Assembly (NCBI GenBank): GCA_027618475.1
Contig: JAQCEJ010000059.1
Coordinates: forward strand, 1 to 32,286
Length of the DNA: 32,286 nucleotides
Direction of reading: 5' to 3'
Source: Planctomycetota bacterium
Lineage (GTDB): Bacteria > Planctomycetota > Planctomycetia > Planctomycetales > Planctomycetaceae
This document shows positions 2,008 to 5,925 of this stretch, one piece after another. Both the position numbers and the translations under genes were made by a program. The notes beneath the pieces are model-generated. The model searched no databases and was not told where the DNA came from. It saw nothing but the letters and a program-made list of their open reading frames with translations. Within the stretch, counting starts at the first letter, position 1. Each line of letters starts with the position of its first letter.

Positions 2008-3051
2008 TCACCCCGTCACCACCCCCTGGCAACTCGACCCCGCTCCTGCGGTGCAGCCGAAGCAGTGTCGGCCGGTGACGATCTTGCGGTGCGACAGCGA
2101 TTCGAGATCGGCATCGAAAATCGTTCGCGGCTGAGACGGTTCGACTCCCAGTTCGAGCATCTGATTGAAATCGCAGTCGTACAAGTTTCCGTTCCAATCG
2201 ACCGATAACGTGTTGCGGCACATCACTCCGCTGACGGCGGCCGGGTTGAAGGCGTCGACCAGTTTTTGCATATACGTTTCGTAACGGCCGGTTTGCAACA
2301 GGTCATCGAGAAAACGGCTGATCGGCAGGTTCGTGATCGTATACAGGCGGTTGAAGACCACGCCGTAACGTTCACCGAGTTCGCGGTGATAGTCTTCGTC
2401 GAGTTTCTCTTGCGGCGGCGGCAACGAAATTCCCTGCGGGTTGAAGACGAGATTCAGCACTAGCCCGCTCTCTGGTTTTCCGTAACCGAGGTCGTTCAGC
2501 CGTTTGATCGCGGCGATCGATTTGGCGAAGACGCCGTCCCCGCGCTGACGGTCGGTGTTTTCTTCGAGATAGCAGGGGAGTGACGCGACGATTTCGACGC
2601 GATGCCCGGCAAGAAACTCGGCGAGATCGTCGTAGCCGTTGGCGAGCAGGATCGTCAGATTGCAGCGGTCGATGACATGCCGGTCGAGTTTTTTGATTTC
2701 ATCGATAAACCAACAGAAATGCGGGTTCATCTCCGGGGCTCCGCCGGTGATGTCGACGACCGGAGTCTCGGAGGCCGCAAGCAGATCGAGACAGGCTTGC
2801 ATCGTCTCGCGGGTCATGATCTCCCGCCGGTCGGGGCCGGCGTCGACGTGACAATGCCGGCATGTCTGATTGCACAACTTGCCGACGTTGACCTGCAGAA
2901 TCTCGATCCGGTCGGATTGCAGCACAGGAAGGCCGTGCGCGGCGAGCTGTTCTCCAAAGCGTGGGAGGGGCTGATCTCCTTCGAGAATCTGCACCTGCCG
3001 ACGGGCTTCGGAAAGCGGGTGATGCTGACGGAGTAACGTGAGCACGGTCAT
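2008..3051 (-). CDS. arsS: Arsenosugar biosynthesis radical SAM protein ArsS
   Basis: A 347-residue radical-SAM enzyme. The cluster-binding motif is 'CNQTCRHCHVDAGP' (CxxxCxxC) near residue 59, followed by the 'DITGGAPEMNPHF' loop. The C-terminus has 'MCRNTLSVDWNGNLYDCDFN' and 'CFGCTAGAGSSCQG', cysteine signatures of the ArsS/SPASM-like branch that probably hold an auxiliary iron-sulfur cluster. ArsS is known to join a 5'-deoxyadenosyl group to dimethylarsenic species, the committed step towards arsenosugars. The ATG is preceded by AGGAA at good spacing. It is transcribed divergently from a glycosyltransferase fusion gene and arsM, which strongly supports the pathway assignment. Confidence 0.93.
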   Translation of the reverse strand: MTVLTLLRQHHPLSEARRQVQILEGDQPLPRFGEQLAAHGLPVLQSDRIEILQVNVGKLCNQTCRHCHVDAGPDRREIMTRETMQACLDLLAASETPVVDITGGAPEMNPHFCWFIDEIKKLDRHVIDRCNLTILLANGYDDLAEFLAGHRVEIVASLPCYLEENTDRQRGDGVFAKSIAAIKRLNDLGYGKPESGLVLNLVFNPQGISLPPPQEKLDEDYHRELGERYGVVFNRLYTITNLPISRFLDDLLQTGRYETYMQKLVDAFNPAAVSGVMCRNTLSVDWNGNLYDCDFNQMLELGVEPSQPRTIFDADLESLSHRKIVTGRHCFGCTAGAGSSCQGVVTG

Positions 3052-3148
3052 GCAAAGTTCCTGTCACGACGGTGTGAAATAGGCGTTCAAGACGAGATCC
3101 CCACCCCGTCGCTTTGACAGATGGCGATCTCCCTTTCATCATAGAATA

Positions 3149-3186
3149 GTCGTTACGACGATTCAGTTATACATCATCCGTTTGAT
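3149..3186. promoter_or_regulatory. Candidate operators in the arsS / glycosyltransferase divergent region
   Basis: The 157-bp gap between the divergent arsS and glycosyltransferase genes holds a palindrome, GTCGT-T-ACGAC (3149-3159), and a spaced dyad, ATCA-6 nt-TGAT (3173-3176 and 3183-3186). Either could bind a repressor of the ArsR type, but no ArsR gene is in the window and the dyads are short. The call is an inference from position and symmetry. Confidence 0.3.
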
Positions 3187-3208
3187 ATTCTCATAGTCGG
3201 CCAATGAT

Positions 3209-4642
3209 TTGAACGTTGCACCGTCGGCACACATCGAGGACGAACCTCCCCCGTTTGCGAAAATGTCGGTCGTTATTCCGGTCGGACCGGATGAAACGGG
3301 CTGGCGTCGACTGCTGATGCAGATCGAGAGTTGGGATTTTGTACCTGAAGTCATCGTCGTGTTTGCGGAGGGAGACGAAGCGAACGCTCGCGGTTTTCCC
3401 AATTCGCGGCACCTCCGCCACATCTCGTCGCCGCGGGGACGGGCGTTGCAGTTGAATGCCGGAGCGCACGTGGCGTCGCATGCGCTGCTGTGGTTTTTGC
3501 ATGCCGACTCGCAGGTTGATGCGAACGCCTCCCGCGCGATGCGGAACGCCGTACAACGGCAGCCGGACGCGATGTATTTTCTCGATCTTGCCTTTTCGGA
3601 CGACGGTCCACCTCTGATGAAACTCAACGCCTGGGGAGCGAAGATGCGTTCGCGCTGTCTGGGGATGCCGTTCGGCGATCAGGGGTTGTGCCTCTCGCAG
3701 CGGGTCTTCACCCACCTCGGCGGGTACGACACGTCGGCGAAATACGGTGAAGATCATCTGCTCGTCTGGGAGGCGAATCGGCAGAGAGTTCCCGTGAAAC
3801 GGGTCGCGGGAACGATCGTTACCAGTTCCCGCAAGTACGCCGAACAGGGCTGGTTGCGAACGACCTGTCGGCATTTCATCGGGACATGGAAGCAGGCCCT
3901 TCCCGCCTGGATCAAAACGTGGAGATCGGGACGAAAAATCGTAAACGACGATTCGGTGGCGGTCGTCGTTTTCGTAAAAACACCGGGACTCTCCCCCGTC
4001 AAGACGCGACTGGCGGCGGAGATCGGCACCGATGACGCCGAACGGTGTTATCGCCTGTCGGTTCACGCCGTCGAAGCCGTTGTGCAAGAAACACGAGAAA
4101 CGTCGAGGGGGAGGGTGGTCCCTTATTGGGCGGTCGCCGAGCCGGCCGGAATGACCGACCCGCTATGGAAGAACTTCGATCGCCTCGTTCAGCCGGTCGG
4201 CGGATTGGGCGAACGTCTCGCCGGTGTTTACAGTCAATTGGCAGCCCGGCATCGTGGCGTCATCTTTCTGGGGGCCGATGCCCCGCAACTGACACCGGAG
4301 GTGTTGAACGATGCGATCGCCCGGTTGAACGCCGGGTTTCCGTTCGTCATCGGCCCGGCGACAGATGGAGGCTTCTATCTTTTCGGCGGCTCGATCCCGC
4401 TTCCCGACACGCTCTGGACGAGCGTCGAATACAGTTGCGAACGAACGTGCGAGCAACTTTGTCGAAATCTGACAGAGCGCGGACCGATCGTGACCCTTGC
4501 GCCGCTGCGCGACATCGATCAACGGGCCGATCTCGATGCCGTCGTCGCAGAAATCAACGCCGCCAACCCTCAACCGGGGGGAGTCTGGTTAAGCGAGCAG
4601 AAAGAGTTCGGTAACGCCTTCAGGTCGAGGGGGAAAAACTGA
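3209..4642 (+). CDS. Fused arsenosugar glycosyltransferase (TIGR04283-like + TIGR04282-like)
   Basis: One 477-residue protein carries two enzymes that I know as separate arsenosugar-associated families. Residues about 19-245 are a GT-A transferase of the TIGR04283 kind: 'SVVIP', 'GRALQLNAGAHVA', 'FLHADS', 'PFGDQGL' and 'HLGGYD'. Residues about 250-465 are a TIGR04282/DUF2064 transferase: 'VVVFVKTPGLSPVKTRLA', 'IFLGADAPQLTP' and 'GPATDGGFYLFGG'. They plausibly attach the sugar or aglycone parts of the arsenosugar, but the exact reactions are not known to me. The start is uncertain: TTG at 3209 is the first in frame after a stop, while ATG at 3263 begins right at the first domain. Neither has a good ribosome-binding site. 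arsM follows 92 bp downstream. Confidence 0.85.
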   Translation: MNVAPSAHIEDEPPPFAKMSVVIPVGPDETGWRRLLMQIESWDFVPEVIVVFAEGDEANARGFPNSRHLRHISSPRGRALQLNAGAHVASHALLWFLHADSQVDANASRAMRNAVQRQPDAMYFLDLAFSDDGPPLMKLNAWGAKMRSRCLGMPFGDQGLCLSQRVFTHLGGYDTSAKYGEDHLLVWEANRQRVPVKRVAGTIVTSSRKYAEQGWLRTTCRHFIGTWKQALPAWIKTWRSGRKIVNDDSVAVVVFVKTPGLSPVKTRLAAEIGTDDAERCYRLSVHAVEAVVQETRETSRGRVVPYWAVAEPAGMTDPLWKNFDRLVQPVGGLGERLAGVYSQLAARHRGVIFLGADAPQLTPEVLNDAIARLNAGFPFVIGPATDGGFYLFGGSIPLPDTLWTSVEYSCERTCEQLCRNLTERGPIVTLAPLRDIDQRADLDAVVAEINAANPQPGGVWLSEQKEFGNAFRSRGKN

Positions 4643-4676
4643 GCCGATCTGCACAGCATGTCGGTTCCCAATCGGC
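4643..4676 (+). other. Hairpin between glycosyltransferase fusion and arsM
   Basis: GCCGAT (4643-4648) and ATCGGC (4671-4676) form a six-base stem around a 22-nt loop, starting right after the glycosyltransferase stop. There is no U-tract, so a terminator is not supported. It could mark a processing site or a regulatory pause before arsM. Weak evidence. Confidence 0.25.
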
Positions 4677-4734
4677 AAGGAGTCGATATACTCAAGGAAA
4701 CCATAACGCGAGATATCCACCGAGGAGTTTTGAT

Positions 4735-5925
4735 ATGACCGCAATTCAATCGGCATCGGCCGAATCGTCGGCGGGACTGAATGTCGAGCAGTCCGTACGC
4801 GAACGTTACAGTCAAGCCGCCGAGGCGCACGAACCGAGTTTATGTTGTGCCGTCGATTACGACGCCCGGTACCTCGAGGTCATTCCTCAGGAGATCATCG
4901 AACGCGATTACGGTTGCGGCGACCCGTCGAAACACATCGCGGCCGGCGAGACGGTTCTAGATCTTGGTTCGGGTGGCGGGAAAATCGGTTACATTGCCTC
5001 ACAAATCGTCGGCCCGAACGGCAAAGTGATCGGTGTCGATTGCAACGATACGATGCTCGCGCTCGCGAATAAGTACCGCGACGATGTCGGGCGAAAGATC
5101 GGCTGGCACAACGTCGAATTTCGCAAAGGAAAAATTCAGGATCTCGCTCTCGATCTTGATCTGGTCGATCGGTATCTCACCACGCACCCGATCGCCACGA
5201 GTCAAGACTGGCTGCAGGCACAGGAACATCTGCAACAGCTGCGCGAATCGAAGCCTCTGATCGCCGATTCGTCGATCGACGTGGTGATCTCGAATTGCGT
5301 TTTGAATCTGGTTCGCCAGGATGACCGCCGTCAACTCTTTGCCGAGATGCTGCGCGTGCTGAAGAACGGAGGGCGGGCCTGCATCAGCGACATCGTCAGC
5401 GACGAAGATGTTCCAGAACATTTACAGCGCGACGGCACGCTGTGGAGCGGCTGTCTCAGCGGCGCGTTTCGCGAAGACCGGTTTTTGCAGGCGTTCGAAG
5501 AGGCCGGTTTCTACGGCGTCGAAATCATCAGCCGACAGGAAGCACCGTGGTCGGTCATCGAGGGAATCGAATTTCGCAGCATGACGGTGCGGGCCTACAA
5601 AGGAAAAGAAGGGCCCTGCAAGGACCGCCATCAAGCCATGATTTACAAAGGCCCGTGGAAAACGGTCATCGACGACGACGGCCACCAACTGCATCGCGGA
5701 GAGCGGATGGCGGTCTGTGACAAGACCTATCAGATCTATTCGCGTCCGCCGTATCGAGACCAGTTCATTCCGATTCAACCGACGGTCGAAGTTCCGCCGG
5801 GGCAAGCGAGCGATTTTGACTGCCACAGCGGAGCCGTTCGCGCCGCACACGAAACGAAGTACAAGACACCGCCGCTGACACAACTCCCACTCGCCGATAG
5901 CTGCGGTCCTGAGGGATGCTGTTAA
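4735..5925 (+). CDS. arsM: Arsenite S-adenosylmethionine methyltransferase ArsM
   Basis: A 396-residue class I methyltransferase. It has the SAM-binding 'VLDLGSGGGK' at residues 74-83 and 'VIGVD' at 98-102. The cysteines expected to bind As(III) in ArsM are present: a CC pair at 37-38, C61 in 'YGCG', C188 in 'SNCVLNLV' and C240 in 'SGCLSGAF'. The C-terminal domain ends with 'CGPEGCC', a Cys-rich tail. ArsM methylates arsenite stepwise, supplying methylated arsenic to ArsS. A strong GAGGAG lies 7 nt before the ATG. Downstream of the glycosyltransferase fusion and near arsS, it most likely serves arsenosugar synthesis as well as detoxification. Confidence 0.93.
   Translation: MTAIQSASAESSAGLNVEQSVRERYSQAAEAHEPSLCCAVDYDARYLEVIPQEIIERDYGCGDPSKHIAAGETVLDLGSGGGKIGYIASQIVGPNGKVIGVDCNDTMLALANKYRDDVGRKIGWHNVEFRKGKIQDLALDLDLVDRYLTTHPIATSQDWLQAQEHLQQLRESKPLIADSSIDVVISNCVLNLVRQDDRRQLFAEMLRVLKNGGRACISDIVSDEDVPEHLQRDGTLWSGCLSGAFREDRFLQAFEEAGFYGVEIISRQEAPWSVIEGIEFRSMTVRAYKGKEGPCKDRHQAMIYKGPWKTVIDDDGHQLHRGERMAVCDKTYQIYSRPPYRDQFIPIQPTVEVPPGQASDFDCHSGAVRAAHETKYKTPPLTQLPLADSCGPEGCC

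Follow-up and report, generated by a model that had tools for sequence, protein, structure and literature searches.

The window, a 32,286-nucleotide stretch of DNA from a member of the Planctomycetota, carries an arsS gene beside a gene that joins two enzymes in a single open frame, a TIGR04283-like half with the predicted fold of a glycosyltransferase and a TIGR04282-like half with that of a nucleotidyltransferase. Fusions of these two families are common and not special to this genome, the two halves belong together, and the arsenosugar route is incomplete in the three genes of the locus. We regard it as an evenly balanced proposition that the fusion gene encodes one bifunctional protein for the late arsenosugar steps, in a route running through ArsM, ArsS, phosphorolysis, activation and transfer. 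Glycerol arsenosugars are the main arsenic compounds of seaweed, and it is the pathway beyond the ArsS product (5'-arsinoyl adenosine) that is addressed here. Reading TIGR04282 as a nucleotidyltransferase, together with the phosphorylase found in some clusters, turns a gene list into an ordered, testable route, and the fusion offers a single protein in which the last two steps could be assayed together.

The locus and the two halves of the fusion protein

In positions 2008-5925 of the window, arsS and the fusion gene diverge and an arsM-like gene lies downstream of the fusion gene. The initial annotation had described arsS as divergent from one two-domain gene followed by arsM, an arrangement borne out by the profile matches and the single open frame. 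arsS (2008-3051, reverse strand) encodes an arsenosugar-type radical SAM enzyme of 347 aa, which scores 461.6 bits against TIGR04167 (curated cut-off, 300), ends in a DUF3641 domain and carries the CX3CX2C motif; its CNQTCRHC radical SAM motif and its C-terminal HCFGCTAGAGSSC are conserved in an alignment with 11 homologues, and a search against PDB sequences gave no match. The arsM-like gene (4735-5925, forward strand) starts 92 bp after the fusion gene and encodes a putative As(III) S-adenosylmethionine methyltransferase of 396 aa. Its product falls below every curated ArsM cut-off (350 of 500 bits for NF040538, 188 of 263 for PRK11873 and 139 of 400 for NF038099) and retains the As-binding cysteine motifs YGCG, SNCVLN (SNCV.N) and SGCLSGA (SGC.SGA); judged by sequence, it is a relative of the arsenite methyltransferases. 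Upstream in the window, a rhomboid-family gene (993-1732) is split by a frameshift near 1365-1400, either as a pseudogene or through an assembly error.

The fusion gene ends at position 4642 on the forward strand and begins at ATG 3263 (459 aa) or TTG 3209 (477 aa). ATG 3263 is the likelier start, because the 18 extra residues of the TTG start were modelled by AlphaFold with lower confidence and because the nearest separate homologue begins four residues ahead of the first strand. The 477-residue protein had been singled out for a profile search, which found a TIGR04283-like and a TIGR04282-like domain. The N-terminal domain (3263-3883, forward strand) matches TIGR04283 over residues 19-224 with an E-value of 2e-49 and 168.1 bits, or 170.6 bits when the half is searched alone; the curated cut-off of 182 bits is not reached, making it a divergent relative and not a member by that rule. 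All family-invariant residues (R78, Q81, H98, D100, G156, D157 and E181) are present. The AlphaFold model of this half has a pLDDT of 90.0 and its closest matches in the PDB, headed by WrtF, are GT-A glycosyltransferases; profile comparison likewise retrieved GT-A glycosyltransferases and, weakly, glucosyl-3-phosphoglycerate synthase. By its predicted fold and its family residues, the N-terminal half is a GT-A glycosyltransferase.

The C-terminal domain (3962-4540, forward strand), which is TIGR04282-like (DUF2064), matches TIGR04282 over residues 252-442 with an E-value of 2.3e-36 and 125.4 bits, rising to 127.9 for the isolated half, short of the curated cut-off of 134, and its Pfam DUF2064 match of 64.7 bits lies above that model's own cut-off. 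The TIGR04282 invariant residues are all in place, and the KTRLA, GADAP, DGG and DID motifs are conserved. A profile of this half matched structures of CofC/FbiD and 3-phosphoglycerate guanylyltransferase (6bwg, E 1.2e-5; 7p97, E 1.6e-4). In fold, the AlphaFold model (pLDDT 93.9) is closest to 3cgx, which belongs to the same family and is annotated as a putative nucleotide-diphospho-sugar transferase, and to the CofC-type enzymes, the DUF2064/CofC entries giving Z scores of 18.7-25.1. IspD, TarI, GlmU and the CMP-sugar synthetases follow, again mostly nucleotidyltransferases, and the 50 best matches consist of 3cgx and nucleotidyltransferases or their relatives. The likeness to CofC/FbiD, 3-phospho-D-glycerate guanylyltransferase (6bwg, 7p97, 2i5e) and 3cgx lies in the fold, over about 195-215 residues, and in the KTRLA/DVD signature, whereas sequence identity is only 16-20%; at an E-value threshold of 0.001 the window protein did not match the CofC model TIGR03552. 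Going by its predicted fold, the C-terminal half is thus a CofC-type nucleotidyltransferase that is not filed as CofC. Because its fold and profile matches are nucleotidyltransferases, the label 'glycosyltransferase' that NCBI gives to TIGR04282 is probably wrong.

A proposed route for the late arsenosugar steps and its alternatives

ArsM and ArsS perform the first steps of arsenosugar synthesis in Synechocystis, where ArsS adenosylates arsenic (PMC8552651, PMC12159101), and known arsenosugars are built as glycosides, with glycerol and its phosphate as aglycones (PMC10456119). These first two enzymes are common to Synechocystis and the window, whereas the fusion would belong to later steps, which are without assigned enzymes in the literature found. 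The Synechocystis ArsM/ArsS arsenosugar pathway was reportedly the subject of work by Xue in 2019 and Cheng in 2021. The open literature yielded nothing on the function of TIGR04282 or TIGR04283 or on the late arsenosugar steps, and no post-ArsS enzyme is characterised there; a paper on green-algal gene neighbourhoods (PMC7826186) was set aside as dealing with ArsJ/GAPDH and not with the arsenosugar pathway.

In the route that we propose, ArsM would methylate As(III) to a dimethylarsenical and ArsS would put a 5'-deoxyadenosyl group on the arsenic. A riboside of glycerol requires the adenine to be replaced; in the phosphorolysis step that we propose, a PNP/MTAP-type phosphorylase, encoded elsewhere in the genome, would strip the adenine to give 5-dimethylarsinoyl-5-deoxyribose-1-phosphate. 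The CofC-like half would then join this sugar phosphate to an NTP, yielding an NDP-arsenosugar and pyrophosphate, and the GT-A half would move the arsenoribosyl unit to an acceptor of the glycerol type. The expectation that the fusion would make the order of the late steps testable is upheld, with activation by the C-terminal half preceding transfer by the N-terminal half; we infer this order, as well as the substrates and the identities of the NTP and the acceptor.

The phosphorolysis step has a counterpart in gene neighbourhoods. Among 80 named ArsS loci, mainly from Planctomycetota, Nitrospirota and Bacteroidota, 15 contain PNP-type phosphorylase genes, against about 0.5 expected from sequence length, and 11 of the 15 also have TIGR04282 (Fisher p 0.0017); in the majority of ArsS loci, no phosphorylase lies close by. 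Of the 28 named loci that possess TIGR04282, 24 have its start no more than 1.3 kb downstream of ArsS. The cyanobacterium Synechococcus elongatus gives matches to ArsS as well as to TIGR04282 and TIGR04283. A PNP gene adjoins arsS in genomes G048, G069, G181 and G071, the first three of which belong to the window's family. The presence of phosphorylase genes in these loci and clusters leads to a chemically ordinary route of phosphorolysis, nucleotidyl transfer and glycosyl transfer. In the window's genome, contigs C25 and C136 carry the phosphorylases (PNP/MTAP). A second locus with arsS and arsM lies on C102 (1-16000), where neighbouring genes encode redox proteins of the CMD and AhpC types, a VTT membrane protein and an FAD oxidoreductase resembling MerA. 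With phosphorylase and redox partners thus placed elsewhere, the earlier suggestion that the whole route from arsenite may sit in three genes does not hold. Since the genome has no other strong TIGR04282/TIGR04283 copy, the fusion probably serves both arsS loci.

A fuller row of genes was found on an Acinetobacter portensis plasmid (NZ_CP096121), in the order arsS, VTT/FAD oxidoreductase (one fused protein), DUF547, TIGR04283, TIGR04282, ArsM-like methyltransferase, phosphate transporter and mtnP. This cluster has arsS, the ArsM-like gene and the 83-82 gene order (TIGR04283 before TIGR04282) in common with the window, but its two transferase genes are separate and overlapping, and it brings together partner genes that are absent from the window. 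The plasmid, pJNE5-X3_NDM-1 (NZ_CP096121.1), bears a name that denotes NDM-1, and its arsenosugar cluster, with mtnP, is apparently complete.

Several points count against the proposed route. Both halves fall just under the NCBIfam cut-offs and sit on a long separate branch, and their substrate could differ. PNP and MTAP enzymes also salvage the 5'-deoxyadenosine released by any radical SAM enzyme, and CofC-type enzymes activate phospho-acids, not sugar-1-phosphates. An unlikely alternative is that the nucleotidyltransferase half activates the aglycone side, joining an NTP to a three-carbon phospho-acid or to glycerol phosphate, and that the GT-A half couples the product to the arsenoribosyl unit. 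The closest characterised structures do use phospholactate/PEP or 3-phosphoglycerate, the glycosyltransferase profile weakly matches glucosyl-3-phosphoglycerate synthase, and glycerol and its phosphate are the aglycones of the known arsenosugars (PMC10456119); however, GT-A enzymes normally take an activated sugar as donor, and the clustered phosphorylase genes would supply a sugar-1-phosphate ready for activation.

We also considered a general role for the pair in making or modifying a glycan or lipid of the cell envelope, with nothing specific to arsenic and an incidental linkage to ArsS, as the ubiquity of GT2 and nucleotidyltransferase folds would allow. This bears on the distribution of the two families in 199 Planctomycetota genomes, in which ArsS occurs in 65 and, under score limits set at tabulation, strong TIGR04283 in 69, TIGR04282 in 91 and both families in 65. 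Both are enriched in genomes with ArsS, TIGR04283 being present in 44 of 65 against 25 of the 134 without it (Fisher p ~2e-11) and TIGR04282 in 55 of 65 against 36 of 134 (p ~8e-15), although the genomes are related and these p values overstate the evidence. The initial annotation had named homologues of each half in genomes without arsS/arsM as grounds for refuting the shared pathway. This is borne out in part, and speaks for the envelope role: in 24 of the 65 genomes with both halves, ArsS is missing even when searched for at low stringency, the leftover hits being other radical SAM proteins with 42-73 bits. Most of these genomes nevertheless encode a different radical SAM protein, in many cases adjoining ArsM or joined to it; 17 of the 24 carry one other radical SAM family and four more a related radical SAM-ArsM fusion. 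Among the genomes surveyed, the divergent 83/82 subfamily to which the window's halves belong always co-occurs with ArsS, in nine of nine genomes (the window's own, G048, G069, G181, G201, G204, G210, G213 and G217), which agrees with the earlier view that both halves act in one arsenic-linked pathway. We accordingly hold the envelope role to be improbable and retain the late arsenosugar role as the preferred reading.

That the two halves are two glycosyltransferases adding two sugars in succession, as first read from the sequence, is in keeping with NCBI's name for both families, 'arsenosugar biosynthesis glycosyltransferase'. The CofC-type fold and KTRLA/DVD signature of the C-terminal half stand against it, as do its best structural matches, which, apart from the unassigned relative 3cgx, are nucleotidyltransferases, and we consider this reading highly improbable.

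Junction, spread and origin of the fusion

The frame is continuous through the junction, where the domain matches stop at about 3883 and restart at 3962. At the place of the linker between them (3884-3961, forward strand), relatives have the stop codon of the first gene and the start codon of the second. In G048 and G069 the two genes, in the same order as in the window, overlap at ATGGTAG in different frames; in G181 they overlap by a longer stretch, again in different frames; and in G201, G204, G210 and G217 the TIGR04283-like and TIGR04282-like genes are adjacent in separate frames. The second gene's ATG and the overlap are absent from the window, and the GTG that remains has no clear Shine-Dalgarno sequence. 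The least probable explanation, that a single-base assembly error merged two overlapping genes, draws on these out-of-frame overlaps, on an A5 run in the linker followed by a TAA in another frame and on the frameshifted rhomboid gene, but the other long open reading frames of the window are intact, the linker and the loss of the second start codon and of the overlap fit a real fusion, and fusions of the two families are common elsewhere.

The survey of 199 Planctomycetota genomes uncovered 22 fused loci in 21 genomes. In 19 of them the order is 82-83, with TIGR04282 first, and in three (the window, G001 and G044) it is 83-82. The two families had been taken to occur as separate proteins, a view that these 22 loci with their two domain orders correct; they also rule out a fusion unique to the window's genome. 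Comparison of fused with separate genes, which the initial annotation had called for, thus showed that fusions are common and that the window's closest relatives keep separate overlapping or adjacent genes. The 80 named ArsS loci contain one fusion (82-83, from an Isosphaeraceae MAG) and nine separate pairs. The fused TIGR04282-TIGR04283 proteins of other Planctomycetota likewise combine both enzyme types in a single chain, and many of them are encoded next to arsS, but they differ from the window's in domain order and in their branches of the tree. Several 82-83 fusions bear an extra GT2-like domain in front; six loci encode such a domain together with TIGR04282 and TIGR04283 in one open frame.

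When 47 TIGR04283 domains were placed in a tree, the window fell into a group of eight with strong support and was its sole fused member, and its halves form a separate long branch with their relatives. The window's halves share domain content, invariant residues and the ArsS association with the TIGR04283 and TIGR04282 families, whereas they differ in lying under both cut-offs, in forming a separate long-branch subfamily and in having the minority order 83-82. The simplest reading is that the window's fusion arose inside its own lineage, as an event separate from the 82-83 fusions; a fusion ancestral to its subfamily is unsupported, as the relatives keep separate genes and the tree agrees. 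The tree forces at least two separate origins or losses of the 83-82 order. In four arsS loci of relatives, the TIGR04282 gene adjoins a gene for a TauE/SafE-like membrane protein (recognised by eye), which lies on the opposite strand in three of them (L039-L041; the fourth is L114) and is possibly an exporter.

A second radical SAM family in genomes without ArsS

In many of the 24 genomes with both halves and no ArsS, a radical SAM family without a curated name adjoins ArsM and TIGR04282/TIGR04283 (for example at L047, L069 and L184), and ArsM shares one open frame with such a radical SAM domain at seven loci (L048, L070, L185, L187, L191, L194 and L195). A further locus, L193, is also among the ArsS-less Planctomycetota loci with this family. 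No curated model covers it, the best match being Rv1681/NF049973, far under the cut-off. The profile of this second family (A5), which was built from genomes picked for lacking ArsS, detected it in 22 of the 199 genomes, none of them with ArsS. The 17 of 24 ArsS-less genomes with both halves that carry it compare with 5 of the 110 other ArsS-less genomes, a strong association, on which the choice of those genomes, the thresholds and kinship all bear. The divergent radical SAM-ArsM fusion of four more of the 24 (G027, G044, G115 and G188) lies under the profile threshold.

The second family may be a distantly related enzyme that substitutes for ArsS. A tentative extension, to which we give slightly less than an even chance, is that the nucleotidyltransferase and glycosyltransferase pair is a common late organoarsenical module fed by either ArsS or the second radical SAM family, the window's fusion being that module in one chain. 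In G044 the radical SAM-ArsM fusion adjoins an 83-82 fusion, so that two genes could hold almost the entire route. If confirmed, the second family, mutually exclusive with ArsS, would represent another way to carbon-arsenic bonds.

Outside the Planctomycetota, a match to the second radical SAM on a Marinobacter plasmid was discarded, as it came in two pieces with no annotated gene beneath and no pathway genes nearby. A plasmid of Roseomonas haemaphysalidis (NZ_CP061178.1) encodes a window-type TIGR04283 protein (45% identity) alongside VTT, FAD oxidoreductase and DUF547 proteins and without ArsS nearby; at a distance of 9 kb lie a member of the second radical SAM family and genes for a further radical SAM protein, TIGR04282, a metallophosphoesterase and a phosphonate ABC transporter.
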